Source: an uncultured Bacteroidales bacterium (GTDB lineage Bacteria > Bacteroidota > Bacteroidia > Bacteroidales > Bacteroidaceae). From it: a stretch of DNA of 37,949 bases. How positions within the stretch are numbered: position 1 is the first letter of the stretch; each line of letters starts with the position of its first letter. The notes beneath the pieces were generated by a model. That model saw only the letters and a list, made by a program, of their open reading frames with translations, had not been told where the DNA came from and did no database searches. The stretch spans positions 1 through 37,949 of the forward strand of contig CACXUA010000012.1 of NCBI GenBank assembly GCA_902770725.1, given 5' to 3'. The position numbers and the translations under genes are program-made. Below are positions 2,167 to 33,719 of the stretch, piece after piece.

Positions 2167-2298
2167 ACTCACGAGAACTTGATAAAATCGACACGTGGAT
2201 TTGATAAAATCGACACGTGGATTTTGCCAAATCGACACGAGGATTTTGGCAAATCCTCTGGAGGGTTTTGAAAAGAATTCACGAGACACTATTAAATC
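2167..2298 (-). repeat. 22-bp-period intergenic array A
   Basis: Six units start at 2167, 2189, 2211, 2233, 2255 and 2277 with no period change. On the plus strand a unit is a 10-base core (CGACACGTGG in units 2 and 3, CGACACGAGG in unit 4) followed by a 12-base tail (ATTTTGCCAAAT or close). The cores contain CACGTG, a palindrome, and the tails are near-palindromic around TTTGCCAAA. Outer units are degenerate. The array lies between the terminator of the ftsY operon (2362-2393) and the moxR promoter (2040-2071). No reading frame of note covers it. Together with the flanking signals it accounts for the 422-base gap 2011-2432; the remainder is A/T-rich without features I can name. Confidence 0.9.
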
Positions 2299-2361
2299 TG
2301 AAAATATAAGTTGGTTAAATTGACAATTATCTTAACCTTCCAATTCACTTTATCGTGTCAC

Positions 2362-2393
2362 AAAAAAAAAGGAGCTTTGCGGCTCCTTTTTTC
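2362..2393 (-). terminator. Rho-independent terminator of the ftsY-rimO-HU operon
   Basis: GGAGC and GCTCC arms (within 2371-2386, extended by A/T pairs) are flanked by A9 on the left and T6 on the right in the plus strand. It therefore reads as a hairpin plus T-tract in both directions. It lies 40-70 bases after the HU/LysM stop codon. Confidence 0.85.
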
Positions 2394-2432
2394 TTTCTTC
2401 TTATATTAATGCAGACCATGAATGGTCAAGCT

Positions 2433-3371
2433 TTACTCTATCTTCTCGAGCTCTGGCAGTTTGATTTCCATATTGACAGGAATGCTATCCGGATCGGTGA
2501 AAGCATTGTGGACAATGATGTACTTAGCAAACTCCTTGTCACCATACTCTTCTCTCGCTATTTTAGCAAGATAATCGCCTGGCTTCATGACGTACGTCTT
2601 GAGCGTACCTACTATCTTGTACTCGCCATCAGGCACTTGTGCGAACTCAGGCTCTGGGGCTGGTGCTTCTTCTACTGGAGTCTCCACTTGTGGCTGCACA
2701 GGTTCTTCCACCTTCACAGATGGTTTACCCAGGAACTTATATGCTAGAAATGCGAGCAGGCAAAGCAACAAAAGACCCAATAGCCAAGCCCAAAGGTGAC
2801 TACCTTTCTTCTCTTCTGATGGAGTGGTCGGTTCGTCTTTTTGCTCAGGAATAGAGACAGGGACGGGCTCAGGCTCGGCAACAGGTTCAGGAGTTGCCTC
2901 TTGTTCGGGCTCAGAAACAGGCGTGAATGCTTGAATCGGCTGAGCAGCAACCTCAGGCTCCGATTCATCAGGGTCTGTATCTCCTCCTGAAGCAAGCTGA
3001 GAGGTCTGAGTTGCTTCTGGCACTCTTTCCATCTCCTCAATGCTCGTTCCTTCGTTGAGGGCAACAGCTTGGAAGTCAGCAAAAGGTTTATTGATAAGGT
3101 CTTTGAGTGCTGTCTCTGGGGTGAACGAGAGCTTTGAGTGTCCAGGTATGACGATACGTTCGCCAGTGTTGACGTTGACGCTTTCACGGTCGAGGACTTC
3201 AATCAACTTAAACGTTCCAAGGCCTTTTATCTTGACAAGTTTGTCGGTGCTGACGTTTTGTGCAATGGAATCGAAGAATTCTTTCAAAAATGCCTCTGCA
3301 TCCCGTTGAGGGATGTTCTTCTTTTGCGCTAATGCTTTAGCAAGTTGCTGGAGGGTTATCTTGTTAGCCAT
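2433..3371 (-). CDS. Membrane-anchored HU protein with C-terminal LysM-like domain
   Basis: 312 residues. Residues 1-95 are an HU/IHF fold (MANKITLQQLAKALAQ, VKIKGLGTFKL, and the arm region ERIVIPGHSKLSFTPE). Residues 110-190 are a Pro/Glu-rich linker. Residues 192-213 are one hydrophobic transmembrane segment after a Lys-Gly-Ser anchor. A second acidic Pro-rich linker follows, and residues 257-306 resemble LysM (TYVMKPGDYLAKIAREEYGD ... IPVNMEIKLPE). The predicted topology puts the DNA-binding domain in the cytosol and LysM in the periplasm, which could tether DNA to peptidoglycan. That role is inference. It is the last gene of the ftsY operon, 5 bases after the HU gene. Confidence 0.85.
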   Translation of the reverse strand: MANKITLQQLAKALAQKKNIPQRDAEAFLKEFFDSIAQNVSTDKLVKIKGLGTFKLIEVLDRESVNVNTGERIVIPGHSKLSFTPETALKDLINKPFADFQAVALNEGTSIEEMERVPEATQTSQLASGGDTDPDESEPEVAAQPIQAFTPVSEPEQEATPEPVAEPEPVPVSIPEQKDEPTTPSEEKKGSHLWAWLLGLLLLCLLAFLAYKFLGKPSVKVEEPVQPQVETPVEEAPAPEPEFAQVPDGEYKIVGTLKTYVMKPGDYLAKIAREEYGDKEFAKYIIVHNAFTDPDSIPVNMEIKLPELEKIE

Positions 3372-3376
3372 AACTC

Positions 3377-3652
3377 TTAATTCTTAACTTTTAATTTCAA
3401 GGATGTGTTGGGTTTGAAGTTCACAGTCATTTTGGGAGGAATGAGCATGCGTTGTTTGGTGTTGGGGTTGACCAACACTCGCTCCAACTTCTTCTTGACC
3501 TCGAAGGTACCGAAGCCAGGAACAAGGATTGAGTTTTCTTCCAACAGCTCACCAATGATGGCTGAGACGGTAGCATTTACCATCGAAGCGGCTTCCCTGC
3601 TGTTCAACTTGGTGCGACTGGCTAAGTCTGCAATAAATTCTTTGTTATTCAT
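3377..3652 (-). CDS. HU/IHF-family DNA-binding protein
   Basis: 91 residues, the standard HU length. MNNKEFIADLASRTKLNSREAA is the N-terminal helical pair, ILVPGFGTFEVKKKLER is the beta region with the conserved G-F-G-T-F, and the arm ends in K-M-T-V-N-F-K-P. It should be a dimeric nucleoid protein that bends DNA. The start ATG overlaps the rimO stop codon as ATGA (3649-3652), indicating translational coupling. The stop codon sits inside a short A/T repeat that leads into the next gene. Confidence 0.93.
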   Translation of the reverse strand: MNNKEFIADLASRTKLNSREAASMVNATVSAIIGELLEENSILVPGFGTFEVKKKLERVLVNPNTKQRMLIPPKMTVNFKPNTSLKLKVKN

Positions 3653-4983
3653 ATTTGGTCGTTTAGTTGTTTAGTCGTTTGGTCATTTAGGATTGCAAAA
3701 AGATCGAATTCATCGGCACTTTCTATCTTTACATTGACGAATTGCCCTGTGTGAAGATTGAGAATTGGGCTTCTCTTGATGAGCACTTCCGGGTCAACCT
3801 CAGGCGAGTCGAACTCTGTGCGGCCTATGAAGTAATCACCCTCCTCGCGGTCTATGATGACTTTCAGCGTCTGTCCTACCTTATTCTCCTGAACATCTGC
3901 GCTTATCTGCTGTTGAACGCGCATCAACTTGCTGAGACGTGCCTGTTTCACTTCATCGGAAACATCGTCCTTGTAGTGTTCTGCAGCGTACGTCCCTTCC
4001 TCTTCACTATAGGCAAAGGCACCCATTCGCTCGAACTTCGCCCACTTCACGAAGTTGATGAGTTCCTGGAAGTCTTCGTCCGTCTCACCCGGGAAACCTA
4101 CCATGAGTGTCGTGCGAAGATGAATGTTGGGTACTTCCTTGCGGATTCTCTCGATGAAATCGTAGGTTTCTTGCTTTGTGATGTGACGACGCATAGCCGA
4201 AAGTTGGTTGTCGCTGATGTGCTGCAGGGCAATATCAAGGTACCTGCAAACATTCTTGTGACGTTTCATTACTTGTAGAAGTTCCCAAGGGAAATGTGCG
4301 GGATAGCCATAGTGAAGCCTTATCCATTCCACGCCAGGCACCTCGGCAATGCGGTCGATGAGCTCAGCTATCATCTGCTTGCCGTAGAGGTCTGTTCCGT
4401 AGCCCGTCAATTCCTGCGCAATTACCTGAAACTCCTTGACGCCTTTCGCCGCCAGACTCTCCACTTCAGCCACGATTTCCTCGATGGAATGGGACTTTTG
4501 TTTGCCTGTGATGATAGGAATGGCACAATAAGCACAATGCCGATTGCAGCCCTCGCTTATCTTCAAATAGGCATAGTGAGAAGGTGTCGTAAGGTGCCTC
4601 TCATTGGAGGCTTCCTTGTGATAGGTTCCATTCAAGTCTGTGATGATTTGCTCCCAATCGAACTTGCCGTAGAACTTATCTACTTCGGGCAGTTCCTGCT
4701 TCAGCTCCTCGAAGTAACGCTGCGAGAGGCATCCCATCACGATTAGCTGCTTTAGCTTGCCTTGCTCCTTTCGCTGCGCAAGTTCGAGTATCATATTGAT
4801 GCTTTCCTCCTTCGCGTCACCGATGAAACCGCAGGTATTGACGATAGCAATCTCCCCCTCGGGTTCCTCTGCATCATGTGTTACATTGAAGCCGTTCAGT
4901 TCCAACTGACGGATGAGCTTCTCGCTGTCAACAAGGTTCTTGCTGCATCCAAGCGTTATTATGTCTATCGTGCGAGACTTCAT
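3649..4983 (-). CDS. rimO: Ribosomal protein S12 methylthiotransferase RimO
   Basis: 444 residues. The N-terminal UPF0004 domain has the cluster cysteines C13 (LGCSKNLVDSEKL), C51 and C85. The radical SAM core has C146-x3-C150-x2-C153 (CNRHCAYC). The C-terminus is TRAM-like. RimO adds a methylthio group to an aspartate of ribosomal protein S12, using two 4Fe-4S clusters and S-adenosylmethionine. The start overlaps the ftsY stop codon (ATGA) and the stop overlaps the HU start. The last dozen or so codons run through a tandem 8-base repeat (about 3655-3690 on the plus strand), so the tail NDQTTKQLNDQI is encoded by repeat sequence and is unlikely to be functional. Confidence 0.96.
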   Translation of the reverse strand: MKSRTIDIITLGCSKNLVDSEKLIRQLELNGFNVTHDAEEPEGEIAIVNTCGFIGDAKEESINMILELAQRKEQGKLKQLIVMGCLSQRYFEELKQELPEVDKFYGKFDWEQIITDLNGTYHKEASNERHLTTPSHYAYLKISEGCNRHCAYCAIPIITGKQKSHSIEEIVAEVESLAAKGVKEFQVIAQELTGYGTDLYGKQMIAELIDRIAEVPGVEWIRLHYGYPAHFPWELLQVMKRHKNVCRYLDIALQHISDNQLSAMRRHITKQETYDFIERIRKEVPNIHLRTTLMVGFPGETDEDFQELINFVKWAKFERMGAFAYSEEEGTYAAEHYKDDVSDEVKQARLSKLMRVQQQISADVQENKVGQTLKVIIDREEGDYFIGRTEFDSPEVDPEVLIKRSPILNLHTGQFVNVKIESADEFDLFAILNDQTTKQLNDQI

Positions 4984-5933
4984 TTCTTGAAGAGTGAATC
5001 AACAAACTCTCTACGATTGAATGGTTGCAAGTCTTCTGCCCGTTCACCTAAACCGATGTAGCGAACAGGTATCTTGAACTGGTCACTAATGCCGATGACT
5101 ACGCCACCTTTGGCACTTCCGTCGAGCTTCGTGATGGCCATGCTCGTCACTTCAGTAGCGGTAGTGAACTGTTTGGCTTGTTCGAAGGCGTTCTGGCCAG
5201 TACTACCATCGAGGACGAGCATTACATCGTGCGGTGCATCAGGCATAAGTTTCTGCATAACGCGCTTAATCTTCGAAAGCTCGTCCATCAAGCCTTTCTT
5301 GTTGTGCAGACGGCCTGCAGTATCGATGAGAACGACATCTGCGTTGTTGGCTATTGCGCTGTTGAGTGTATCGAAAGCCACGCTGGCTGGGTCGCTTCCC
5401 ATCTTTTGCTTGACGACTGGGACGCCGATCCTTTCGCCCCAAATACTTATCTGCTCGACAGCAGCGGCACGGAAAGTGTCGGCTGCTCCAAGCACAACCT
5501 TCAAGCCGGCTTCTTTGAACTGATAGGCGAGTTTACCGATAGTGGTCGTCTTGCCTACACCATTCACGCCTACGACAAGGACGACGTATGGCCTTTTGTC
5601 GGCAGGAATCTGAAAACCTTCAGTGTCGTCTGTGTTGTTTTCCGTAAGTAATTGTGCGATTTCATCGCGAAGAATGTTGTTGAGCTCGTCAGTCGTGACG
5701 TACTTGTCTCGCTCAACTCGAGCCTCGATACGTTTGATAATGTTGAGGGTTGTATCTACGCCCACGTCACTGGTCACAAGGACTTCCTCCAGGTTGTCGA
5801 GCACCTCGTCATCTACCTTCGACTTGCCTGCAACGGCACGCGTCAGTTTGCCGAAGAAACTTTCCTTCGTCTTCTCAAGCCCTTGATCGAGCGTTTCCTT
5901 CTTCTCTTTGGTAAAGAAATTAAAGAATCCCAT
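4980..5933 (-). CDS. ftsY: Signal recognition particle receptor FtsY
   Basis: 317 residues with only a very short acidic N-terminus before the NG domains, as usual outside Enterobacteria. The P-loop is GVNGVGKTTT (about residues 122-131). G3 is DTAGR in VVLIDTAGRLHNKKGLMDEL and G4 is TKLDGSAKGG; the region GLGERAEDLQPFN closes the G domain. FtsY is the membrane-associated GTPase that receives SRP-ribosome complexes and hands them to SecYEG. It is the first gene of a four-gene operon behind a TATATTTG promoter. Confidence 0.97.
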   Translation of the reverse strand: MGFFNFFTKEKKETLDQGLEKTKESFFGKLTRAVAGKSKVDDEVLDNLEEVLVTSDVGVDTTLNIIKRIEARVERDKYVTTDELNNILRDEIAQLLTENNTDDTEGFQIPADKRPYVVLVVGVNGVGKTTTIGKLAYQFKEAGLKVVLGAADTFRAAAVEQISIWGERIGVPVVKQKMGSDPASVAFDTLNSAIANNADVVLIDTAGRLHNKKGLMDELSKIKRVMQKLMPDAPHDVMLVLDGSTGQNAFEQAKQFTTATEVTSMAITKLDGSAKGGVVIGISDQFKIPVRYIGLGERAEDLQPFNRREFVDSLFKK

Positions 5934-5961
5934 ATCTTTCTTTGCTTAGTTATTTCGCGTG

Positions 5962-5995
5962 CAAATATAGCAAAAAAAGCCCAATCCATCGCAAA
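5962..5995 (-). promoter_or_regulatory. Probable promoter of ftsY
   Basis: The minus strand has a perfect -7 element TATATTTG (5962-5969), with a TTTG (5992-5995) 22 bases further upstream. The spacing is two bases longer than usual, so the -33 call is less certain than the -7 call. Confidence 0.55.
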
Positions 5996-6036
5996 TAATA
6001 CCGAATTTTTAGTATTAATTAAGGAATAGGAAACAA

Positions 6037-6068
6037 CAAAAAACTCCTTCGTTTCGCAACGAAAGAGC
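6037..6068 (-). terminator. Terminator of the BlaI/M56 operon
   Basis: Arms CTCCTTCGTT and AACGAAAGAG (6044-6067) pair with one mismatch around TCGC. On the minus strand the hairpin is followed by six T. It lies about 45 bases after the M56 gene stop codon. The 178-base gap 5934-6111 otherwise holds only the ftsY promoter. Confidence 0.8.
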
Positions 6069-6111
6069 TGTATGGCGCCAAATTATTAACTTCTAAAAAC
6101 TATAAGCATTG

Positions 6112-8001
6112 TTATTGGGGGCTATTCCCTTCCTGACGCGCGCTGAGCCGGAACTGGATGGGCAGGTTGAAGCGGCTGCGGACAATATTACCGTCCTTAT
6201 CCTTGGCAGGTTCCCACTTCGGCATTGCCTTCAAGACACGCACTCCTTCTTCGTAGAGCAGTTCTCCTAAGTCTTGTCCCACTTTGGGCTCCTCTGTGCT
6301 CTCAGGATTCTTCTCCTTGTAGGAAGTCACATCAATCTCCGAGAGTTCCATGCCAGGTCCGCGCAGCTTCTTGATTTCCGTGATACTGCCGTCCTTCTCA
6401 ACAACGAAGCTTATGATGACGCGACCTTGCACACCAAATTGTTGGCAGAGCTTCGGATAGCGGATGTTCATCGACAAGAACTTAAAACATTCCGGGTCGC
6501 CTCCAGGGAACTTTGCCCTCTCCTTCACCACATTATAGATGGTGTCGTTATTGTTGAAGACTTCCTTGTCATTGAGCATTATCTTGGCGACGCTCTTGCC
6601 ATTGACTGTAATATTGCCGTCGTCGTCCATCTCTGCTCCGGGCAATTTCTTGACGAGGTCCTTGAGAACAGGGTCATTAGTTCCTGTCTGCTTGTTATAG
6701 ACAACATTCTGACTCTCAGGTTCCTTCGTTTCCTTCTTGGTAGTAATTACGATGACGCCATTGGAACCTTTGTCGCCCCATACTTTGGTGGCGGCATCAT
6801 TCTTCAGCACGGTAATGCTTTCGATGTCCTCCACATTAATATTCAGCAGAGATGAGAATTGCTCTTCACTGTTCATTGTTTCAAAGTTGACATCTTTGGA
6901 AACTTCGATGATTTTGCCGTTGAGGACAACCAGAGGCTGTGCATTATCATGACCACGCACACGCATCATGGTTGTACCAGAGGTTCCTTCATCCTTTATT
7001 TTCTCCTTTTTCCCTTCTAAAGCTTGCAGGTTTGGAGAATTCTCCGTACCTTTGCCTTCGAGTTTAGTTACAGTCTCCTCGATGGGAGCGACGAACTTAG
7101 GCGTTGCGAAGGCCGAGAGCGCCAACGCAGCGACCGGGATGACATAGAGCGCCTTGCTCTTCATCCAAGGATTTGATTTTGACTTCTTCATCATAGTGAT
7201 ACGTTTTTTAGTTAAACTATGGTTAAAGCTGTTGGCAAAAGGGTACCCACCGGAGCCAACGGCTTTTCTTATGAGCAATAACTGATAGCCTTGTGCCGAG
7301 ACGCCATGCTCGAGGACGAAGTTGTCGGCCTCATATTCGTGCACATCACGCAGGCTGATGCCCAGCACATAACAGAGCGGATTCCACCACTGAAGCATCT
7401 GCACGAGGGTGAGCAGCACGACGTCCCACGAGTGGCGGCCCTGAATGTGTCCCATCTCGTGAAGGACAATCTCGCGACCTGCTTCGTCGTAATCCTTCTC
7501 GTTAATCACGATGTTCCGCATCCAACTGAACGGCGCCACATCTCCCGAATGGCAATAGATGCGGACGCCCTGCTCGTCGTTGTGCCAAAGCACACCCTGC
7601 TTCAAGCCGAACTGCAGGCGGGCAATCTGCCAAAGCCTCATCAAGAGCAACGCCACCATACCTATTATATATATGAGACTGACGAGGAAGAAGACGCTGA
7701 AACGCGAGATCCCCTGACTTGCCGCACCCTCTGCCAGGACTTGCACCTCGGGCAAGACATGAACGGGAATGCCTAACTCGAGCATCTGCAACTGCGCCGC
7801 TTGCACGACAGGCTGGTGATCGAGCGACATCCAGGGTATGTTGCAGAGTGGCAAGACGAGCGACAAGAGCAGGATTCCCAGCAAAATCAAGCGATTGAAG
7901 CGAAAGAAACTCTCGCGCCTGAGCATCAGCATGTAGGGCAAGTACAGCATTGACAGTACGATAGCCGACTTGATGGAATACAGTAACAAAGCAGACATCA
8001 T
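6112..8001 (-). CDS. M56 (BlaR1-like) peptidase fused to TonB plug and TonB C-terminal domains
   Basis: 629 residues. Residues 1-270 are a BlaR1/MecR1-type M56 metalloprotease with hydrophobic segments near 5-25, 36-55 and 100-122, the zinc motif HEMGH (181-185) and a downstream E-Y-E-A-D (about 222-226). A TM segment near 287-303 leads outward. Next is a TonB-receptor plug-like piece (VVLNGKII, DIESITVLKNDAATKVWGDKGSNGVIVITTK), and residues about 510-629 are a TonB C-terminal domain (GVQGRVIISFVVEKDGSITEIKKLRG). It pairs with the BlaI repressor immediately upstream. By analogy it senses an envelope signal and inactivates the repressor; the inducer is unknown. This fusion is found in other Bacteroidetes. 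Confidence 0.88.
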   Translation of the reverse strand: MMSALLLYSIKSAIVLSMLYLPYMLMLRRESFFRFNRLILLGILLLSLVLPLCNIPWMSLDHQPVVQAAQLQMLELGIPVHVLPEVQVLAEGAASQGISRFSVFFLVSLIYIIGMVALLLMRLWQIARLQFGLKQGVLWHNDEQGVRIYCHSGDVAPFSWMRNIVINEKDYDEAGREIVLHEMGHIQGRHSWDVVLLTLVQMLQWWNPLCYVLGISLRDVHEYEADNFVLEHGVSAQGYQLLLIRKAVGSGGYPFANSFNHSLTKKRITMMKKSKSNPWMKSKALYVIPVAALALSAFATPKFVAPIEETVTKLEGKGTENSPNLQALEGKKEKIKDEGTSGTTMMRVRGHDNAQPLVVLNGKIIEVSKDVNFETMNSEEQFSSLLNINVEDIESITVLKNDAATKVWGDKGSNGVIVITTKKETKEPESQNVVYNKQTGTNDPVLKDLVKKLPGAEMDDDGNITVNGKSVAKIMLNDKEVFNNNDTIYNVVKERAKFPGGDPECFKFLSMNIRYPKLCQQFGVQGRVIISFVVEKDGSITEIKKLRGPGMELSEIDVTSYKEKNPESTEEPKVGQDLGELLYEEGVRVLKAMPKWEPAKDKDGNIVRSRFNLPIQFRLSARQEGNSPQ

Positions 8002-8047
8002 GATATTTACTATTTATCATTTAACAATTTACCATTTATCACTTTTG

Positions 8048-8431
8048 CTAAATGAGTGAGAGCAGTTCTTTCACCTCTTCGGCCGAGAGGTTCTCTTCCT
8101 TGACGAAATAGTTGAGCATCGACTTCACGCTGCCACCGAAGAAGTTCTGCTTCACCTCCTGCATCGTGCGGCGCGTGTATTCGGCTCGCGTTACGAGCGG
8201 CACATAGCGATGCGTCTTGCCCTGACCGCCCACTTTGTGGAAGTCGAGATAACCTTTCTCGTAGAGCACTTTCAGGTAGGTCGCGATAGTTGTGTATGCA
8301 GGCTTGGGCTCTTTGTAGTGCTCCAAAACGTCCCACGCACAAGCCGCTCCGTCGATGTCCCAAAGGATGTTCATCACTTCGAACTCAACCTTAGTCAATG
8401 TGTTGTCGTTGCGTTTCATATCATTCAACAT
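8048..8431 (-). CDS. BlaI/MecI-family transcriptional repressor
   Basis: About 127 residues from the ATG at 8431 (M-L-N-D-M-K-R-N); the ATG at 8419 (M-K-R-N) is the alternative. A longer frame exists only from a TTG at 8449. The winged helix is LTKVEFEVMNILW ... AYTTIATYLKVLYEKGYLDF, followed by the family's KTHRYVPLVTRAEYTR segment and a C-terminal dimerisation helix. BlaI repressors bind dyads near their own promoter and are released when an M56 partner triggers their cleavage. The M56 gene follows after 46 bases of A/T repeat. Confidence 0.9.
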   Translation of the reverse strand: MLNDMKRNDNTLTKVEFEVMNILWDIDGAACAWDVLEHYKEPKPAYTTIATYLKVLYEKGYLDFHKVGGQGKTHRYVPLVTRAEYTRRTMQEVKQNFFGGSVKSMLNYFVKEENLSAEEVKELLSLI

Positions 8432-8446
8432 GTTTGTTTCCGAGAG

Positions 8447-8596: not shown

Positions 8597-8620
8597 AAAT
8601 GTTGTTGCTTTGTTACTTCC

Positions 8621-12608: not shown

Positions 12609-13235
12609 TTACGGGAGGCGATAACGTGTCTGAGCGCCTTTGCCTTCGCGAACCAGACGACCCTCTCGAACGAGCCGACGCAACAGACTTGTAACGCGAC
12701 TACGGGTCAAGGTCTGTTCGAAAGCGACGGACACATCCTTATGCGTAATGTAGGTCCTGCTGGCAAAGAGCTCGGTGAGGCGTGTCTCGACCTCCGACTC
12801 CTCAGCATTGAACTTCCATCCGTACGGCACCTGGTCCACCTCGAAGCCACGCACCTCGGCCAGCAGCTCGCTGTCAGGACGGAACTGCAGACCTTCCACG
12901 CGGACATCTTTCCCGTGATAGTTGCCGTCCTTCACCTCGATGCTGCCCTTCAAGGAAAGGCGGAAAGTGCCGATGCCAGGCAGCGTGACGGCATTGCCCT
13001 TCTCGAGTTCATGCACCATCACCCTTTGCAAAGTGCTCAGAGCCGCCATCAGTTCGGCCTTCGGCAACACGGAAGGCAACCTGCCGCTGCTGCTCTGGAA
13101 CTCGATGGCATCCGTCGTCTGCGGACATTCCAACAAGACGCGAAGGCTCTCCAAATCAGCCGTTTCACTCAAATTCTCCTGCTGTCCTTCCGTGGGAAGA
13201 ACACCACGCCGGGCAATTGAAAATCGTATAGGCAT
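12609..13235 (-). CDS. HU-like (HU-HIG type) DNA-binding protein with C-terminal winged helix
   Basis: 208 residues. The N-terminus MPIRFSIARRGVLP and the HU-like core (LPKAELMAALSTLQRVMVHELEKGNAVTLPGIGTFRLSLKG ... VEGLQFRPDSELLAEV) match the Bacteroidetes HU-like class. Residues about 150-208 form a winged-helix-like tail (SRTYITHKDVSVAFEQTLTRSRVTSLLRRLVREGRLVREG). The fusion suggests a sequence-specific DNA-binding role rather than a bulk nucleoid protein. It has its own exact promoter and precedes the ECF sigma gene by 70 bases with no terminator between, so it may be co-transcribed with it. Confidence 0.82.
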   Translation of the reverse strand: MPIRFSIARRGVLPTEGQQENLSETADLESLRVLLECPQTTDAIEFQSSSGRLPSVLPKAELMAALSTLQRVMVHELEKGNAVTLPGIGTFRLSLKGSIEVKDGNYHGKDVRVEGLQFRPDSELLAEVRGFEVDQVPYGWKFNAEESEVETRLTELFASRTYITHKDVSVAFEQTLTRSRVTSLLRRLVREGRLVREGKGAQTRYRLP

Positions 13236-13307: not shown

Positions 13308-13389
13308 ATGCAGTCAAGTTGTTTGCACATACATGTAAATTCAATTGCACATACATGTAGATGCAATTGCACATACATGTATGTGCAAT
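13308..13389 (-). repeat. 22-bp-period intergenic array B
   Basis: Three units begin with TTGCAC at 13323, 13345 and 13367, exactly 22 bases apart. The core of every unit contains the palindrome TACATGTA. Unit ends differ (ATTCAA, GATGCAA, TGTGCAA). The last unit with its flanks is a perfect 24-base palindrome (13366-13389, half-site ATTGCACATACA). The lead-in is ATGCAGTCAAG (13309-13319). It lies between the terminator at 13411-13446 and the promoter at 13261-13292. It shares its framework with array C. Confidence 0.93.
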
Positions 13390-20206: not shown

Positions 20207-22663
20207 TTACTTCAACTTTGTAGTGATGATGTTAACGCTGAATGGCGCGACGTCAAAGGAAAGGCGACGACCTTCGTCTGAGGTCGTGACCTTTGCCGGA
20301 CGCGGCACAATGTTGTCTGGGTACTGCATGGTGTTCTCGTCGTCGCCTGTCATGCCTGCCAGCCTTACCATCTCCGCTTCTGCTGCCGTGCCGCCCGAAA
20401 GTTCGATGTTGCCATTGGTGCCGGTTTCGCAAAGGTTTACAATCTTTGTGTAGAGTGTACCTGTCTTCTCGTCGAGCGTCGAGTTGGCATAAACGCCGTG
20501 CAGCAGGCCGCTTTTCTTCTTGCCCTTATAAACTTGCTTTCCATCGACGAAAGCTGTGATGTCCTCGCCATCCACATCGAGCTGGATGTCATACCAGCGG
20601 CCTGTCTCATAGCTGTCGCTGTGTGCACCGTCCAGGGTATTGCGGTTGCCGCTCATGGTAGTCTCAACGGAAGTCCTCGTGTTGCCCCATCCGCCGAGGT
20701 TGAGCCAATCGAAGTTCTTCTCGTCCACGTAGTTGAAGACAATCACGAAGGCCTCCGCTCCACCATCTTTCCTTGCCTGCACCTTGTAGGTATAGCGTTT
20801 GGCTTTCATCCTGTCTGGAGAGACGTGCATACTCTCTTCAGCATTACTCGTTTGACGCAGAGTGCCGCCTTCCACGCTCCAATTGCCCTGATACTCAGGC
20901 TTCGAGTTGCCCGACGTCCAGTTCTTCATGTCAGAGAGCTGCACCTCAGTGCCCTCAATCAGGAGTTGCGGATTGCGATAAGTGGCTTGCGTCTTCCATG
21001 TAGCCACGCCAACACCAAATGGAATCATATTTTCCACCTTCCTCTCCGGAATGCTCCACTGCAAATCGCTCTTCACGAGACGGTTGCCGATGTGCGTCGG
21101 GAAGAGTTGCTGCACCCAATAGCTCGGCGTGCCGAACGACTTGCTGCTGTTGAAGCGAATCATGTCGGGTCGCCACTGAATGCGGTTCTCGTTGACGAAG
21201 ATAGGCGCATAACTGCTCATGCGGACAATGTCGGCGTTGTTCTCCATGCCGAGCATAAAGACGGCTTCGCCCATCGCCGCATTCATGTTGCCCGTCGTGC
21301 CGTAGCCATTCGTTACAGCATACTCGCCAGGATAGATGATGGGGCCTTTGCGGTCGTAGTTGTCGAAACGATGATACTGGCTGATGAACCAGGCAGGATT
21401 GCGATAATAATGCTCATCGACGATATCGACGGGATGCTCATTGCGCCAGCGAGGATGGTCCGTGCCCCATGACTCGACGTTGCCAATGCACTTTACTTCA
21501 GGGAAGCGGGCCTTGATGGCGTCGTAGAACATTCGATATCGCTCGGGATAGTGGTCGCTCTGGTCGGAATTGTCGTCCATGTGCCAGTTGTAGTTCTCGT
21601 TACCTATTTCTATATAGGCGATGTTGAAGGGTTCTGGATGACCGTTCTCGGCACGCATCTTGCCGTAATGACTTGTGACGGGACCGTTGGCGTACTCCAG
21701 GGCACCAAGGCATTCATCAATCCACGGCTGCAACTCATTCAGGGGTGTGCAGCCGCCGTGCCAAATGCCGATATTGACGACATAGAGGGGCTTGGCTCCG
21801 AGATCCTCGGCGAGTTGCAGGAACTCATGGAAGCCGAGGCCGTCCGTCGTGGGATAACCCCAGTTAGCATTCATGTGACCCGGACGTCTTTCTATCGGGC
21901 CAACGGTTCTCTCCCAATGGTAGGCGTTCTCGGGCTTAATGTTGCCTTCCACGTAGCAGCCGCCTGGGAAGCGCATGAAGGCAGGATGAAGGGCCTCGAG
22001 CTTCTCAGCCAAATCGATGCGGCAGCCGTTCTCGCGGCCTTTGTAGGTAGGGGGGAAGAGGCTCACGACATCAAGAAGGACGCTGCAGGGATTCTGGAAG
22101 GTGAGGTGGAAGACGGCTTGAGGGTCGCTCTCAGTGGCTACGATGTTGGCCTCCACCTTCTGCCAGCCCTTACGGAACTTGACGTCGATGGTGGTGGCGC
22201 CAAGTGTGTGGTCACGCTTGGTGGCGAGGCGAGCGAGCAGGGAGCCTGGCTTGCCGTGAAGAACCTTTACCCAGAACGACAGCTTGTACTGCGTCCCTGC
22301 CACTACATTGATGCCCCAATAGCCTTCGTTGCTAATGCCGGCTGCAGGGATGGGACTTTTGACCAGAAGGGCATGACCTTGCTTCTCGTTGAGGAGGTCA
22401 TCGCTGACAAGACTGATCTCGCTCCTCTCTGCCTTCCAATGGACTGGTCTCTCGGCATCAAACTCAAAGGAGCGGTTCCTGATGAGCTCAGCATAGAGGC
22501 CGCCATCGCTAGCGAAGTTGATATCTTCGTAGAAGATGCCGTAGAGTGTTGGACTGATTTCGATGCCCTTCTGTGCCACATCGACCTTGATATTGACCTG
22601 CGCCCGACTGCTTACAGCGAAACAGGCCAGCATTGAGGCAAAAAGCAATTTTAGTACGTTCAC
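20207..22663 (-). CDS. Secreted GH51 alpha-L-arabinofuranosidase with laminin-G/DUF1080-like insert
   Basis: 818 residues with a signal peptide (MNVLKLLFASMLACFAVSSRAQ). An N-terminal carbohydrate-binding-like region is followed by the GH51 barrel: FMRFPGGCYVEG, the acid/base in IEIGNENYNW (E356), VDEHYY, and a probable nucleophile glutamate in PGEYAV (about E447). Residues about 580-730 form a beta-rich insert resembling a DUF1080/LamG fold (WYDIQLDVDGEDITAFVDGKQVYKG), and a C-terminal beta domain ends the protein. It should release arabinose from arabinoxylan or arabinan side chains. Its close spacing to the RND genes makes it the apparent first gene of that unit. Confidence 0.92.
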   Translation of the reverse strand: MNVLKLLFASMLACFAVSSRAQVNIKVDVAQKGIEISPTLYGIFYEDINFASDGGLYAELIRNRSFEFDAERPVHWKAERSEISLVSDDLLNEKQGHALLVKSPIPAAGISNEGYWGINVVAGTQYKLSFWVKVLHGKPGSLLARLATKRDHTLGATTIDVKFRKGWQKVEANIVATESDPQAVFHLTFQNPCSVLLDVVSLFPPTYKGRENGCRIDLAEKLEALHPAFMRFPGGCYVEGNIKPENAYHWERTVGPIERRPGHMNANWGYPTTDGLGFHEFLQLAEDLGAKPLYVVNIGIWHGGCTPLNELQPWIDECLGALEYANGPVTSHYGKMRAENGHPEPFNIAYIEIGNENYNWHMDDNSDQSDHYPERYRMFYDAIKARFPEVKCIGNVESWGTDHPRWRNEHPVDIVDEHYYRNPAWFISQYHRFDNYDRKGPIIYPGEYAVTNGYGTTGNMNAAMGEAVFMLGMENNADIVRMSSYAPIFVNENRIQWRPDMIRFNSSKSFGTPSYWVQQLFPTHIGNRLVKSDLQWSIPERKVENMIPFGVGVATWKTQATYRNPQLLIEGTEVQLSDMKNWTSGNSKPEYQGNWSVEGGTLRQTSNAEESMHVSPDRMKAKRYTYKVQARKDGGAEAFVIVFNYVDEKNFDWLNLGGWGNTRTSVETTMSGNRNTLDGAHSDSYETGRWYDIQLDVDGEDITAFVDGKQVYKGKKKSGLLHGVYANSTLDEKTGTLYTKIVNLCETGTNGNIELSGGTAAEAEMVRLAGMTGDDENTMQYPDNIVPRPAKVTTSDEGRRLSFDVAPFSVNIITTKLK

Positions 22664-22691
22664 AATAGTTTCGTTTTAGTTGTTTCCACTG

Positions 22692-22699
22692 CAAATATA
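22692..22699 (-). promoter_or_regulatory. -7 element of the GH51 promoter
   Basis: Minus-strand TATATTTG matches TAnnTTTG about 29 bases before the start codon. The upstream element is only TTCG at a 19-base spacing, so the -33 match is partial. Confidence 0.55.
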
Positions 22700-22839
22700 C
22701 GATTTTTTTCTTAATTGCGAAGGAAGCAAGGCAAAAGTAAACCTCTTTTTCCTATTTTATTGTTTCCGAGCGAGAGTGCCTTTGCCATGATTTCAGTTAG
22801 CAACTATGCCCCCTCTCGCCAGACAAATTGCCCGAGACA

Positions 22840-22919
22840 TGCAGTCAAGATGATTGCACGGTCGCGACAATTCAATTGCACGGTCGCGATGATGCAATTG
22901 CACAGTCGCGACGCTGCAA
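22840..22919. repeat. 22-bp-period intergenic array C
   Basis: Three units begin with TTGCAC at 22854, 22876 and 22898, exactly 22 bases apart. The core of each unit contains TCGCGA, the full palindrome being GTCGCGAC in units 1 and 3. Unit ends are ATTCAA, GATGCAA and CTGCAA, and the lead-in is ATGCAGTCAAG, the same positions and nearly the same letters as array B. The array sits in the 386-base divergent gap 22664-23049. The rest of the gap holds the two -7 elements and a GTCGAGC/GCTCGAC inverted repeat (about 22937-22996) of unknown role. Confidence 0.93.
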
Positions 22920-23020
22920 CGGACTTCACCTGTCAAGTCGAGCAAAAGGACAAGAGAACTCCACTCCCAAAAGATGTTAAAAGAGGTGGCTCGACAAGTC
23001 AGAATGTCGAATTTTATTCG

Positions 23021-23028
23021 TACCTTTG
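23021..23028 (+). promoter_or_regulatory. -7 element of the metallophosphatase promoter
   Basis: TACCTTTG on the plus strand matches TAnnTTTG and lies 21 bases before the chosen ATG. No TTTG occurs at the expected -33 distance. The position rules out the upstream TTG (23026) as the start codon. Confidence 0.5.
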
Positions 23029-23049
23029 CCGGCAGAAGGACAAATAAGA

Positions 23050-24147
23050 ATGTTTGCACGAATGATGATGCTACTGTTTCTGCTGATTCCGTTGCTGGCC
23101 CTCGCGTATGTCTGCTGGCATGTCTGGCTTTTGCTCCCCCTAAAGGGGTTTTGGGGGTCTTTTATTCTCCTGTTGATGGTGAGCGCTTTCGCCATGCTCT
23201 TCGCCAGCATCTTCCGTACGACGGACCGCTTGCCGATGCCCTTGGCGACGGCAGTTTACGAGGTGGGGACGTCGAGCATCATCGTCTTGCTCTACCTCTT
23301 CATGCTCTTTGTTGTTCTTGATTTAGGGCGACTCCTGCATCTGCTGCCTGCCGCATGGCTGCGCGACAACTGGTGGACCGCCGGCGGCATCGTGCTCCTC
23401 CTCTTCGGGCTTTTCGTTTACGGCAACCTCCACTACCGCCACAAGTACCGCGAGGAAATGACGATTCGCTCGACGAAGGTAACGAAGCCCGTCAAGTTGG
23501 TGTTGATGAGCGACTTGCATCTCGGCTATCACAACCGCCGGAAAGAGTTCGCGCGATGGGTTGACCTTATTAATAATGAGCATCCCGACATGATTCTCGT
23601 GGCTGGCGACATCATCGACGGCAGCATGCGACCACTTCGCGAAGAGCGGATGTACGAGGAGTTCCATCGGCTCGATGCGCCCGTCTTTGCCTGCCTGGGC
23701 AACCACGAATACTTCAGCGGCGAGCCAGAGGCACAAAGGTTCTACAGAGATGCCGATATCTGCCTGCTGCAAGACACGACGACGCAGCTGGGTGACCTCT
23801 GCATCATGGGGCGCGACGACCGCATGAATCGCCGCCGTCTTCCGCTCAAAGACCTCGTCGCGTCAGCCGACAGAAGCAAATATCTCGTCCTCCTCGACCA
23901 CCAGCCTTACCACTTGGAACAGGCCGAGCGCGAAGGCGTGGACTTTCAATTCAGCGGTCATACCCATCATGGACAGGTCTGGCCTATCTCGTGGATAACC
24001 GACATGATGTATGAATGCGCCTTCGACACCTACCAGCGCGGCTCGACAAGCTACTACGTCAGCAGCGGTATGGGCATTTGGGGCGGCAAGTTCCGCATCG
24101 GCACCCGCTCGGAATATCTCGTCCTGACGATTGAGCCAGCCAGCTAA
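23050..24147 (+). CDS. Membrane-anchored calcineurin-like metallophosphoesterase
   Basis: 365 residues from ATG 23050; a longer TTG frame would overlap the promoter. Three or four hydrophobic segments in residues 3-126 precede a cytosolic-type metallophosphoesterase domain with SDLHLG (D155, H157), AGDIIDG (D187), GNHE (N218, H219) and GHTHHGQ (H304, H306). This layout matches the YkoQ/YaeI-like group, some of which act on lipid-linked phosphates; the substrate here is unknown. It is the only complete plus-strand gene, facing a convergent neighbour. Confidence 0.92.
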   Translation: MFARMMMLLFLLIPLLALAYVCWHVWLLLPLKGFWGSFILLLMVSAFAMLFASIFRTTDRLPMPLATAVYEVGTSSIIVLLYLFMLFVVLDLGRLLHLLPAAWLRDNWWTAGGIVLLLFGLFVYGNLHYRHKYREEMTIRSTKVTKPVKLVLMSDLHLGYHNRRKEFARWVDLINNEHPDMILVAGDIIDGSMRPLREERMYEEFHRLDAPVFACLGNHEYFSGEPEAQRFYRDADICLLQDTTTQLGDLCIMGRDDRMNRRRLPLKDLVASADRSKYLVLLDHQPYHLEQAEREGVDFQFSGHTHHGQVWPISWITDMMYECAFDTYQRGSTSYYVSSGMGIWGGKFRIGTRSEYLVLTIEPAS

Positions 24148-24233: not shown

Positions 24234-24992
24234 CTATCTAGTAAGAACACGGACGGGGCGGACGCTTCGACCGTAGCTGCGGTCAAAGTCGTTCCAGCTG
24301 ATGTAGGCCGAGTTGAAGAACAGGAAGTATGCGCTGCTGATGCCGTCCGTGCCGAGCGAACGCGACCAGTAGTGGCTGCGGCTGCCTGCGTGGTCGAGAC
24401 TCGTGTCGTTGCGGTAGCCCGCAGCGGGCAGGAAAATGGAGTTCCCGTTGCTATTGCTCGTTATCTTCCTGCCGTTGATGCCGTTCTGTGTCGTCCAAGT
24501 CGTTGTGGTGTAGCTGCTGTTGTACAGCTCAATTATCTGACTGAAGCTCGGCATTCGCCAGTTGCTGCCCCAGTTCACGGCGGCTGCATCGTCCTCGGGG
24601 TCGAGCTCCTTCTTGCCGTCCGTGAAGCCGTTGTAGCCATAGTCGCTTTGGGCGCAGTACTTAGTCATTGTATCGTTCGAGCCTTTGCAGTACTTGTATG
24701 TGCTCCAGCTATAGTTATCCTTTGGCTCTATCTCGCCCCAGGCGAAGTAGTCGCCATATTCTTCCGGGCTGTTGGCGCCGACATTGCACGTCGCCCAAAG
24801 TGTGCCGCTCGGCAAACCGAGGTCAACCCACTCGTGCTCCTCGGCCTCTACAAACGCAACCTCCTTTACTTGCGAAATACTGTAAGTTACTTTACTGTTG
24901 TCATTCAGCGTGACAATCATCTTCTGTGCCATCGCTGTCTGCACGCCTGCCACCAATAGCAGCAGGGCTGCAAGAATGCTTTTTACCTTCAT
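24234..24992 (-). CDS. Secreted FISUMP/DUF1566-type surface protein
   Basis: 252 residues with a signal peptide (MKVKSILAALLLLVAGVQTAMAQ). A short region (MIVTLNDNSKVTYSISQVKEVAF) of the kind that often precedes surface domains in Bacteroidales is followed by one domain with WVDLGLPSGTLWATCNVGA, YGDYFAWGE, NWRMPSFSQIIEL, FLPAAGYR, YWSRSL and the end GRSVRPVR. This is the pattern of the Fibrobacter succinogenes major paralogous domain family, common as multigene paralogs in Bacteroidales. The ligand is unknown. It has an exact promoter and a G10 tract upstream. Confidence 0.85.
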   Translation of the reverse strand: MKVKSILAALLLLVAGVQTAMAQKMIVTLNDNSKVTYSISQVKEVAFVEAEEHEWVDLGLPSGTLWATCNVGANSPEEYGDYFAWGEIEPKDNYSWSTYKYCKGSNDTMTKYCAQSDYGYNGFTDGKKELDPEDDAAAVNWGSNWRMPSFSQIIELYNSSYTTTTWTTQNGINGRKITSNSNGNSIFLPAAGYRNDTSLDHAGSRSHYWSRSLGTDGISSAYFLFFNSAYISWNDFDRSYGRSVRPVRVLTR

Positions 24993-25198: not shown

Positions 25199-25286
25199 TC
25201 TCCGTGGAGCATTACAAAACGCGGCACGCCAAATTCGCAAACATGGCATGCCAAGTTGGGCAACGCGGCACGCCATGTTTTTGCTC
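25199..25286 (-). repeat. 22-bp-period intergenic array D
   Basis: Four units start at 25199, 25221, 25243 and 25265. Units 2 and 4 have the 10-base core GCGGCACGCC and unit 3 has ATGGCATGCC, which makes the inner eight bases a perfect palindrome. Tails are 12 bases (AAATTCGCAAAC, AAGTTGGGCAAC, ATGTTTTTGCTC). It lies between the rpoC terminator and the FISUMP promoter, in the 415-base gap 24993-25407. Outside the array, that gap holds the promoter, the G10 tract, an A9 run (about 25162-25170) and no credible gene. Confidence 0.88.
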
Positions 25287-25366: not shown

Positions 25367-25373
25367 TTAAATA

Positions 25374-25407: not shown

Positions 25408-29741
<4,334 letters not shown>

Positions 29742-29744
29742 TCA

Positions 29745-32700
29745 TTATTCCAAACTTACACGCAATCCCAGACCGCGCAACTCATGGAGCAGCACGTTGA
29801 GAGATTCGGGAATGCCCGGCGTGGGCATGTGATCACCCTTGACGATGGCTTCGTAAGCCTTGCTGCGACCTACGACGTCATCACTCTTGATGGTGAGGAT
29901 CTCCTGCAATACATGTGAAGCACCGAAGGCCTCGATAGCCCAAACCTCCATCTCACCGAAACGCTGACCACCAAACTGTGCTTTACCACCGAGAGGCTGC
30001 TGAGTGATGAGTGAGTACGGGCCGATGCTACGAGCGTGCATCTTGTCTTCAACCATGTGACCGAGCTTCAGCATGTAGGAAACACCTACGGTTGCAAGCT
30101 GGTCGAACGGTTCGCCAGTAGCACCATCGTAGAGCTGTGTAGAGCAGTAGCGAGGCAGGCCTGCCTTGTCTGTCCATTCACAGAGGTCATCGAGAGATGC
30201 ACCGTCGAAGATAGGCGTTGCAAACTTGACGCCAAGCTTCTGGCCTGCAGCGCCAAGCACGGTCTCGAAGATCTGACCGATGTTCATACGAGAAGGCACA
30301 CCCAGCGGGTTGAGCACTACGTCGACAGGTGTACCGTCGGCCAAGAATGGCATGTCTTCCTGACGAACCACCTTGCTGACAATACCCTTGTTACCGTGAC
30401 GACCGGCCATCTTATCGCCGACACCAATCTTACGCTTCTTGGCAATGTAAACCTTAGCAAGCTGGATGATGCCGTTGGGCAGCTCGTCACCGAGGCTGAT
30501 GGCAAACTTCTTACGCTTCATCTCAGTCTCAAGCAACTTGTACTTCTTGAGGTAGTTGATGATGAGCTTGCCGATGAGCTCGTTGATGTGCTCGTCGTTG
30601 GTCCAGCCTCTGAGCTGAACGGTAGTGTAGTCGATAGTCTCGAGCACGTTGGCAGTGATAGCGCTGTTCTTTGCAACAAGCACAACACCCACGTTGTCCA
30701 CGATGCCCTGACTCTTCTTGCCCTTGGTGAGCTCGAGGAGTTTATCCACGAGGATAGCCTTCAGGTCTTCTACCTTGCTATTGAACTCTTCGTCGATAGC
30801 AGCCAGACGAGGCTTGTCCTGCAACTTCACCTTACCGGTCTTGGAGGCCTTGGTGAAGAGCTTCTTGTCGATAACTACACCATTGAGAGAGGGACTTGCC
30901 TTGAGGGAAGCATCCTTCACGTCGCCAGCCTTGTCACCAAAGATGGCACGAAGCAGCTTCTCTTCAGGACTGGGATCGCTCTCGCCCTTAGGTGTAATCT
31001 TACCAATCATGATGTCGCCAGGAGCCACACGAGCACCGATACGAATGATACCGTTCTCGTCGAGGTCCTTGGTTGCCTCTTCGCTGACATTAGGAATGTC
31101 GGCTGTGAGTTCCTCCATGCCACGCTTTGTCTCACGAACCTCGAGGGAGAACTCCTCGACGTGAACGCTGGTGAGGATATCTTCGCGAACGACACGCTCG
31201 TTGAGCACGATGGCGTCCTCGTAGTTGTAACCCTTCCAAGGCATGTAAGCCACGAGCAGGTTCTTACCGAGTGCCAATTCGCCGTCCTCCGTAGAGTAAC
31301 CTTCTGTCAGAATCTGACCCTTCACAACCTTGTCACCCTTGTTGCAGATAGGACGAAGGTCGATGGTCATGTTCTGGTTTGTACGACGGAACTTTGGAAT
31401 GCGATATTCCTTCAGAGCGGGCTCGAAGCTAACGAACTCCTCGTCTTCAGTACGGTCATAAAGGATGCGGATGGTAGTTGCGTCAACATATTCGACAACG
31501 CCATCGCCTTCGGCGGTAATCATCGTGCGAGAGTCTTCGCAGACCTGACGCTCGATGCCTGTGCCGACGATAGGAGCCTCGGTGCGCATCAAAGGCACTG
31601 CCTGACGCATCATGTTCGATCCCATCAATGCACGGTGAGCATCGTCGTGCTCGAGGAAAGGAATGAGGGCTGCAGCGATTGATGCAATCTGCTGAGGAGC
31701 AACGTCCATGAGGTTGACCTCCGAGGGAGGAACCACTGGATAGTCGTCGTCCTGACGGCACTTAACCTTCGTGCGGATGAAGGTACCGTCGTCGTTGAGA
31801 GGTGCGTTACCCTGACCGATGATGAGACCCTTCTCTTCTTCGGCAGTCATGTAGCGAACACCTTCTGGCGTGAGGTCAACCTTCGCATTCTCAACCTTAC
31901 GGTATGGTGTCTCGATGAAGCCCAGGTCATTAATCTTTGCATAGACGCAAAGAGATGAAATCAGACCGATGTTTGGACCTTCAGGAGACTCGATAGGACA
32001 GAGACGTCCGTAGTGTGTGTAGTGTACGTCACGGACCTCGAAGCCGGCACGCTCACGAGAAAGGCCGCCGGGGCCGAGGGCAGAGAGACGACGCTTGTGC
32101 GTCACTTCGGCAAGAGGATTGGTCTGGTCCATGAACTGGCTCAGCGCGTTGGTGCCGAAGAAGCTGTTGATGACACCGCCCAGGCTCTTGCTGGTCAACA
32201 GGTCTGTAGGTGTGAACACCTCGTTGTCGCGGACGTTCATGCGTTCGCGAATGGTGCGGATCATACGAGCCAGACCGATGGCGAACTGATTAGCGAGCTG
32301 CTCGCCTACAGTACGAACGCGACGGTTGCTCAGGTGGTCGATATCGTCCACCTGTGCCTTAGAGTTGACAAGCTCAATCAAGTACTTGATAATCTCGATG
32401 ATGTCTTCCTTGGTCAACACACGCACGCTTGGGTCTGTATCCAGGCCAAGCTTGTGGTTGATACGATAGCGGCCCACCTCGCCGAGGTCATAACGCTTCT
32501 CGCTGAAGAAGAGGTTGAGGATGACTTCCTTGGCACTTGCATCATCAACGGGATCTGCATTACGCAACTGACGATAGATGTAGCTGATGGCTTCCTTCTC
32601 GCTGTTGGTAGCATCCTTCTGGAAAGTGTTGAAGATGATGCTGTAGTCGGAAGACTGTGCATCTTCCTTGTGCACGAGGATAGAAGGCACATTGCTGGCC

Positions 32701-33554
32701 ATAATCTGCTCGATGGCTTCCTCGTCGAGGACGCTCTCACGTTCGAGAATAATCTCGTTACGTTCGATAGATACCACTTCGCCGGTATCCTCGTCGACAA
32801 AGTCCTCAATCCAGCTCTTAAGTACGCGGGCTGCGAGCTTCTGGCCGAGATGTTTCTTCAGGTTCTCGCGAGTAGCCTGAACTTCCTCTGCGAGGTTGAA
32901 GATCTGAAGAATGTCTTTATCGTTTTCGAAGCCGATGGCACGAAGCAGTGTCGTTACGGGCAACTTCTTCTTACGGTCGATGTACGCGTACATTACATTA
33001 TTAATGTCTGTAGCGAACTCGATCCAACTACCCTTGAAGGGAATGATACGGGCAGAATAGAGCAGAGAGCCATTGGCATGCACACTGCTGCCGAAAAATA
33101 CACCAGGTGAACGGTGCAACTGTGAAACCACAACGCGCTCGGCACCATTGATGATGAAGGTACCATTGTCGGTCATGTAAGGGATAAAGCCCAGGAACAC
33201 ATCCTGAACAACTGTGTCGAAGTCTTCATGATCGGGGTCGTCGCAGCTCAACTTCAGCTTTGCCTTCAAGGGCACGCTGTAGGTGAGGTCACGCTCCAGA
33301 CACTCCTCGATAGTATAGCGAGGGGGATCAATGAAGTAATCGAGAAACTCCAGATTAAAGTTGTTGCGAGTGTCATTAATCGGGAAATTCTCAGAGAAGA
33401 CTTTGTACAAACCATCGTACTTCCTCAGTTCTGGAGGAGTATCGAGTTGGAGGAAGTCTTTGAAAGACTTCAGCTGCACTTCCAGGAAGTCCGGATAAGC
33501 CAGCGGACTCTTCACGGAAGCGAAATTAACTCTCTGATTCTTTTTGTTAGCCAT
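29745..33554 (-). CDS. rpoB: RNA polymerase subunit beta
   Basis: 1269 residues, intact and typical of Bacteroidetes. The rifampicin-binding region reads [46 protein letters not shown]. The C-terminal part contains [15 protein letters not shown] and the clamp-connecting [22 protein letters not shown]. It forms the active-site cleft with beta'. The gene is separated from rplL by a terminator/attenuator and array E, so it is probably expressed by read-through plus a promoter I could not place; no exact TTTG-N20-TAnnTTTG is seen in the gap. Confidence 0.98.
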
Positions 33555-33588
33555 CTAAACTTGTATTGTTTTCTCGTGATTGTTTATG

Positions 33589-33719
33589 TAGCACGTCTAA
33601 CTTGTCAACTAGCCACGGTTAGTTTGTCAATTAGCCACGTCTAGTTTGCCAATTAGCCACGCCTAGTTTGCCAATTAGGCACGTCTAGTTTGCGAACTAG
33701 GCACGTTGTGTTTTTGGAG
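33589..33719 (-). repeat. 22-bp-period intergenic array E, rplL-rpoB gap
   Basis: Six units start at 33589, 33610, 33632, 33654, 33676 and 33698, all 22 bases apart except the first step (21). Plus-strand cores are TAGCCACGTC, TAGCCACGCC, TAGGCACGTC and close variants; tails are TAGTTTGCCAAT (twice), TAGTTTGTCAAT, TAGTTTGCGAAC and degenerate outer copies. It begins 35 bases upstream of the rpoB start and ends before the rplL terminator. The surrounding 296-base gap (33555-33850) otherwise holds only that terminator. Confidence 0.92.

Follow-up and report, generated by a model that had tools for sequence, protein, structure and literature searches.

The 37,949-nt stretch analysed here (the window) is contig 12 of the incomplete 2.26-Mb genome of an uncultured Bacteroidales bacterium (G000, 134 contigs), and it carries five intergenic arrays of tandem repeats, A to E, with a step of 22 bp. 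In G000 and five close relatives, such arrays kept one period across sequence families, lay between genes and occupied sites shared between species. At some of these sites, one array was replaced by another of unrelated sequence, and neighbouring half-units avoided perfect complementarity. We read the arrays as dispersed extragenic elements between transcription units, which would work at the DNA level with a largely free sequence and a conserved architecture; the function proposed is tentative, and we hold this reading with somewhat less than even confidence.

The preliminary description of the window, made from the sequence letters, had reported the five arrays, and Tandem Repeats Finder (TRF) confirmed a period of 22 with 0% indels at each of them. 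A 44-bp self-match scan at lag 22 marked five places in the window, exactly arrays A to E, whereas 10 first-order Markov simulations gave no such place; at the threshold of 28 of 44 matches, all other lags from 13 to 40 combined gave 3 places. The scan was extended to six genomes, namely G000 and the relatives G005, G035, G012, G024 and G013, chosen for an RpoB at least 97% identical to that of the window. In this ranking, with the gene confirmed by Pfam, a match was found in 52 of 61 genomes, and the next relative stood at 89%. The window and 20 further stretches of G000 (384,926 bp) held 58 lag-22 arrays at threshold 28 and 57 at threshold 29, at which other lags from 13 to 50 gave 0 to 8 each, except the harmonic 44 with 43. 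The preliminary description had proposed a scan of periods 21 to 23. Over the six genomes (1,384,566 bp, threshold 28), 22 dominated with 189 arrays, compared to 31 at lag 21, 1 at lag 23 and 2 at lag 20. Of the outcomes that it had named as fatal, a frequency no higher than in shuffled sequence and absence from close relatives did not occur, as the simulations yielded no arrays and the arrays recurred in the five relatives.

Outside this group, the arrays were rare. The 79 named rpoB loci from other records (1,542,006 bp; 80 loci minus one apparent genus member, with further genus members possibly remaining among them) gave two period-22 arrays, one of which was a poly-C end. Neither of the two arrays among the 80 named loci sat in the rplL-rpoB gap, though some of these loci end too near rpoB for the gap to be visible, and the 24 other loci returned by the RpoB search held no period-22 array. 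Within the same genus, 26 other stretches picked without array matches contained 18 arrays (508 kb, threshold 28), which came from 15 of the 26 genomes. Several of these were weakly palindromic; these other genus members had fewer arrays, with differing units, e.g. GAGTCCATGTGCGTGGACTCAA in G029. We must also note that most stretches of the relatives were picked around rpoB or matches to the array-B region, and some of G000 around array-A matches, so that density and the counts of the family with core TACATGTA, that of array B, are inflated. The nine G000 stretches picked without array matches (contigs 1, 4, 5 and 6, ~170 kb) held 20 arrays, about one per 8.5 kb, which by extrapolation amounts to a few hundred loci per genome. 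The six close species are a group of gut-type bacteria with arrays in many intergenic gaps. As a side observation, period-16 repeats were commoner in the G005 stretches L169-L188, with 13 in 369 kb (threshold 29) versus 1 each in similar-sized stretches of G000 and G035.

The arrays of the window, none of which is assigned to a strand, are the following.

Array A, 2167..2298: CACG-class units TTGATAAAATCGACACGTGGAT and variants, in the gap between two co-directional (-) genes, HU-family upstream (2433-3371, -) and MoxR-like ATPase downstream (1015-2010, -); TRF span 2179-2270 (overlapping rows); cores at 2170, 2192, 2214, 2236, 2258 (degenerate) and 2280.

Array B, 13308..13389: three TTGCA-nn-TACATGTA-nn-TGCAA units (family F2), with a divergent right arm of unit 1 and perfectly complementary outer arms L1/R3; TRF span 13323-13389; cores at 13331, 13353 and 13375.

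Array C, 22840..22919: the frame of array B with core TCGCGA, in a divergent gap; TRF span 22853-22919; cores at 22862, 22884 and 22906.

Array D, 25199..25286: CACG-class with GGCACGCC/GGCATGCC cores, downstream of an rpoC-like pair of open reading frames (ORFs) and upstream of ORF 24234-24992 (-); TRF span 25217-25275, the weakest of the five (72% matches, score 62); cores at 25203 (degenerate), 25225, 25247 and 25269.

Array E, 33589..33719: six CACG cores spaced by exactly 22 bp, in the gap from rplL (L7/L12 side) to rpoB; TRF span 33592-33706; cores at 33592, 33614, 33636, 33658, 33680 and 33702.

The 21-bp step previously claimed for E was absent, since its core positions are all 22 bp apart. 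The classes were broadly as first described: A, D and E have CACG/CGTG-type cores, and B and C a common TTGCA...TGCAA frame with differing cores. Gene calls from a codon model placed C between divergent genes; the gaps of A, B, D and E separate co-directional genes. Of the 12 gaps in the window that reach 100 bp, five hold an array; these are five of the six longest, and a tRNA lies in the sixth. Beside D, the rpoC region (25408-29717, -) consists of the ORFs 25408-27972 and 27966-29717, which overlap and each contain a portion of the Rpb1 domains; this is either an assembly frameshift or a genuine split. On the rplL side of E, the ORF at 33973-34158 (-) has an L7/L12-like start, recognised by eye, and ends after 61 aa; rplL appears interrupted in this assembly.

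The sites of the arrays were shared between species to a large extent. In directional comparisons, a gap with an array corresponded to an orthologous gap with an array in 56 of 66 cases, whereas an empty gap did so in 11 of 101 (odds ratio 46). Starting from the arrays, 74 of 88 comparisons found one in the orthologous gap. The comparisons are not independent, and the 74 rows represent 42 distinct array pairs at 15 loci. By unit similarity, 21 of these pairs were clearly related, 8 were intermediate and 13 did not exceed the 95% point of shuffled units (12/22). The 13 unrelated pairs came from four of the 15 loci, with seven at the rplL-rpoB gap and two at the array-A gap. The preliminary description had proposed a dispersed element with exchangeable cores and asked whether cores vary at the same locus; 58 arrays in 385 kb, and some arrays with unrelated units between species at four of 15 orthologous loci, support that proposal.

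The rplL-rpoB gap held a period-22 array in all five relatives, and a CACG-type array there was common to four species. G005 carried an unrelated unit despite having the closest flanks to the window (97.9%), which is most simply read as a replacement in the G005 line. The unit of G013, at 9 to 14 of 22, showed no clear relationship. The sequence next to the array also differed, over some tens of bases. The GTTTATAGACACAAAAAGGCAAAGAACCCTCTACCAGAGGATCCTTTACC segment beside array E (window ~33775-33845), perhaps the terminator of the rplL side, was unchanged in six species, and the adjoining array was not. At the array-A gap, G005 had a similar array, shorter by about one unit, and G035 a TACATGTA array. 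At the array-B gap, the same family was found in G005, G012 and G024. We found no two-flank orthologous match of array C among the relatives. Its TCGCGA units aligned with ACATGT arrays in G005 (L170:3306-3412) and G035 (L190:2416-2520), where the metallophosphatase-side flank alone was shared. The gene order at array C (window 22634-23175) differs in G005 (C42:22246-27956) and G035 (C61), which have an array beside a segment resembling window 22.8-24 kb, followed by DNA like window 12.6-13.4 kb (HU-HIG).

The units are imperfect dyads. In 195 arrays, six of them from other genus members, the consensus unit formed on average 7.6 of 11 circular pairs, compared to 5.8 in shuffled units, and the best dyad axis fell between bases in 173; with a first palindrome statistic, diluted by flanks, 23 of the 195 lay above the 95% point of the null. 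Three units were present in 96 of the 189 arrays, and four in 52. The CACG class of A, D and E followed AACTYRRC-RY-GYYRAGTT-KGCM (264 units, 63 arrays) and the class of array B followed TTGCAnnTACATGTAnnTGCAA. Clustering of the 189 consensus units at 16/22 identities gave 26 clusters, the two largest having 73 and 63 members and 18 being singletons, whereas 169 units merged into one cluster at 15/22; the number of families therefore depends on the cut-off. Two mosaic arrays of G013 (L221:3896-3996 and L221:11352-11448) had TCGCGA-type outer units and TACATGTA units inside.

Pairing between neighbours followed a rule of avoidance. Neighbouring half-units were perfectly complementary in 25 of 672 cases, compared to 63.6 after permutation (standard deviation 4.8), a result based on those 119 arrays, of the 189, whose dyad axis fell clearly between bases; a test of mirror symmetry outside the TACATGTA family used 131 arrays. 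The others were dropped from these tests for an unclear dyad axis or shortness. Within the TACATGTA family, which has two free bases per arm, neighbouring arms were perfectly complementary in 1 of 75 pairs versus 13.2 permuted (five genomes; the pairs came from 75 of the 76 TACATGTA matches tallied). The CACG class avoided perfect pairs across the spacer (5 versus 12.7, P = 0.0005); within the unit, the deficit was not significant (14 versus 16.9). In consequence, we rejected, as a general rule, a row of small hairpins with the 4-nt spacer at their centre.

The TACATGTA arrays of three units showed a further regularity. The mirror pair R1-L3 was complementary in 18 of 28 arrays from three genomes (permuted 5.6), i.e. 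in 12 of 19 in G005, 4 of 4 in G013 and 2 of 5 in G000, and in none of the 28 did the arms of the central unit match each other (permuted 4.5). In these three species, the array can be read as an extended inverted repeat whose centre is unpaired or mismatched. The cruciform or hairpin suggested in the preliminary description thus has sequence support in the family of array B, but in no other family and not in every species. A mirror hairpin of the whole array in all families was rejected, as it is absent outside TACATGTA and G035 retains the outermost pair alone. A hairpin with a unique outer stem per array was suggestive by eye in a few cases and was likewise discarded: complementarity of the flanks outside the arrays hardly exceeded that of swapped flanks (P = 0.05 in G000, not significant in G005 and G035). 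A generic permutation test of folding energy gave a small effect, with 91 of 156 arrays below the permuted value (P = 0.002).

The placement of the arrays was assessed with the codon-model gene calls, as the first calls had put 59 arrays outside gaps, often in short ORFs that appeared to be spurious. The 189 arrays lay in co-directional (112), convergent (32) and divergent (25) gaps, inside called genes (4) and at stretch ends (16). Per gap of at least 100 bp, there were 0.39 arrays in co-directional, 0.60 in convergent and 0.26 in divergent gaps, and 82 of the 112 arrays in co-directional gaps lay closer to the upstream stop. One array per gap was the rule: among 333 gaps that reached 150 bp, a single array was present in 128, more than one in five and none in 200. 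A long divergent gap on contig 3 of G000 (L016:12890-13870) contains four period-22 arrays with differing units in ~1 kb.

Several unrelated sequences keep the same step of two helical turns, which speaks for a constraint on the geometry of duplex DNA. Moreover, a site that is kept while its sequence may change argues that structure matters, and the scarcity of perfectly paired neighbours suggests that perfect short hairpins do harm or are unstable. In the mechanism that we propose, mostly three or four units of two helical turns each would place dyad-like cores on the same face of the DNA. The array would serve as a multi-dyad platform or form a long imperfect hairpin or cruciform, on which a putative nucleoid protein or topoisomerase would act by shape. 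Such action would separate the neighbouring transcription units topologically; loss of an array would be selected against, and new arrays would arise by copying from other loci. A more novel proposal is a new kind of chromosomal element, defined by geometry and site and not by sequence. Bacteria of this group would retain an array of imperfect dyads with 22-bp phasing at particular boundaries of transcription units, with a shape-reading factor insulating the units, letters continually rewritten by copying between arrays and perfect neighbour pairing disfavoured; we regard it as doubtful, although possible.

The HU-family proteins of the window are, by analogy, candidate readers. They are encoded on the (-) strand at 2433-3371, 3377-3652 and 12609-13235 (PF00216 for two, HU-HIG PF18291 for one); two are adjacent beside A and one lies beside B. 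The preliminary description had pointed to HU-like proteins; their presence in the window holds, but nothing ties them to the arrays. Its dyads for a dimeric protein also fared unevenly, for the fixed two-turn spacing fits them, whereas the avoidance of perfect neighbouring dyads is contrary to a plain palindromic operator. What matters here is that species have occupied sites in common although one sequence can take the place of another, in one case between species with 98% identical flanks. "Having an array" is then separable from "having this sequence", so that a structural or topological role can be tested directly, and the avoidance of perfect neighbours together with the fixed two-turn step sets quantitative constraints on any model.

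Several observations weigh against our reading. Replacement rests on four loci. The mirror pair R1-L3 was complementary in just 2 of the 5 TACATGTA arrays of G000 and in none of the 29 near-identical TACATGTA arrays of G035 (expected 0.33), in which solely the outermost pair L1-R3 was complementary (0.90 versus 0.72 expected). The neighbours R1-L2, L2-R2 and R2-L3 were also complementary in none of the G035 arrays, a variant outside the TACATGTA pattern of the five genomes. No mirror symmetry emerged outside the TACATGTA family (offset 1.07 compared to 1.13 after permutation, P = 0.28) or in the CACG class (13 versus 12.6). CACG neighbours with at least 6/8 matches were somewhat enriched, so that perfection alone is avoided, and the avoidance may be just the instability of perfect palindromes. 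The TACATGTA elements of G035 had a within-species identity of 0.971 (25 elements), which looks like the recent spread of a mobile repeat, and a Y1 transposase match of G035 was above the family cut-off. The scarcity of arrays in divergent gaps (0.26 versus 0.60 convergent per gap) fits a role at RNA 3' ends too.

The homogenisation within species, the near-identical G035 copies and the G035 Y1 match make selfish, non-autonomous mobile repeats the main rival. These would resemble miniature inverted-repeat transposable elements (MITEs) or repetitive extragenic palindromic (REP) repeats, with an unknown mover and no host function, and their insertion at existing arrays or operon ends would explain the shared sites. 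The G035 copies occur in both orientations (of 23 aligned, 9 plus and 14 minus). Identity was 0.84 for orthologous G005-G035 pairs (n = 4) and no lower, at 0.852, for all G005-G035 pairs; as far as four pairs allow, the copies thus seem to have been homogenised within each species. With regard to the terminal inverted repeats of a MITE, complementarity between the flanks did not clearly exceed that of swapped controls, and symmetry inside the array was confined to the TACATGTA family. Nevertheless, the array sites are common to several species, and one mover would not obviously give unrelated sequences the same 22-bp period. For the G005 rpoB array, no near-identical donor was found among the 40 of 58 G005 candidates that were scored, which gave partial matches of 70-84%. 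The Y1 transposase family of REP-associated tyrosine transposases (RAYT, PF01797) was matched in G013 and G035 (22 of 61 same-genus genomes had a match), but not in G000, G005, G012 or G024, whose incompleteness means that this absence is not final. We consider mobile repeats possible, if on the improbable side.

Hairpins at mRNA 3' ends that terminate, protect or process transcripts would account for the position near the upstream stop and the highest density in convergent gaps. The arrays also fold better, at -0.356 kcal/mol per nt, than equal-length DNA at a distance of ~400 bp, at -0.231, although this control is perhaps coding. However, sense and antisense strands did not differ in folding for the 112 co-directional arrays (P = 0.31, 0.80 and 0.12 at three flank lengths), for which reason a sense-strand RNA element was rejected. 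TTTTT, as the T-run of an intrinsic terminator, occurred within 25 nt downstream in just 7 of these 112. Together with the arrays in divergent gaps, these results point to DNA rather than one-strand RNA; moreover, the sole Rfam match at the gathering threshold, in a search confined to the window, was a tRNA, and RNA hairpins need no fixed 22-nt step. An RNA-level role is thus unlikely. Arrays of operators, bound by several sequence-specific dimeric regulators or by a ParB/Noc-like protein, with one reader per family, would agree with the two-turn phasing, the dyad-like units and the species-specific consensus in one family. Against them stand the replacement of an array by an unrelated family at the same site, the avoidance of perfect dyads and the very large number of sites implied by the unselected stretches, which make operators decidedly improbable. 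The genomes are fragmented, mostly incomplete assemblies; the recurrence of arrays in independent genomes, aligned flank to flank, and the empty null simulations leave an assembly or chance artefact scarcely conceivable.

Among known systems, the iterons of plasmid replication are tandem repeats with a step of about two helical turns, located at a single locus beside a Rep gene and not known to be palindromic. By this description, the arrays resemble them in the step and differ in their many loci and their dyads. We found no description of the arrays in the open-access literature, which is weak evidence of absence, as subscription papers were largely uncovered; they are likewise undescribed in the accessible parts of PMC3733652, PMC2817692, PMC4596501, PMC5771137, PMC8040213 and PMC13155455.

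The BrickBuilt MITE of Porphyromonas gingivalis is, in the accessible text of PMC4596501, also an intergenic tandem repeat of a Bacteroidales genome with long predicted stem-loops. It is one element with a 23-nt repeat, a leader, a tail and inverted-repeat ends, in 19 copies in one strain. In contrast, our arrays have a period of 22 (23 occurred once in 1.38 Mb) and 26 unit clusters at 16/22, a number that falls when the cut-off is loosened. Repeats that are palindromic and extragenic are long familiar, with several hypotheses of function and none agreed (PMC3733652, in the part available). For REP repeats and the bacterial interspersed mosaic elements (BIMEs) that contain them, the proposed roles in the accessible sections of PMC3733652 and PMC2817692 are supercoiling, termination and mRNA stability. 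As described there, those of the GTAG and CGTC superfamilies are, like the arrays, short, palindromic, extragenic, present in many copies, often clustered and species-specific. They also lie mostly between co-directional or convergent genes, near 3' ends, and the arrays show this co-directional and convergent bias as well. Unlike REP/BIME as presented in these sections, the arrays have a strict 22-bp tandem step, several unrelated unit sequences with one period and members in divergent gaps, and the genome of the window gave no RAYT match. By presence at any position in the 189 consensus units, neither GTAG/CTAC (8.5% versus 15.0% shuffled) nor CGTC (13.8% versus 11.6%) was enriched. A RAYT-driven REP was rejected for want of a PF01797 match in the genome of the window, though G013 and G035 have one. 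The best reading by analogy is that the arrays, without the tested features of REP/BIME, would nevertheless work like these repeats.

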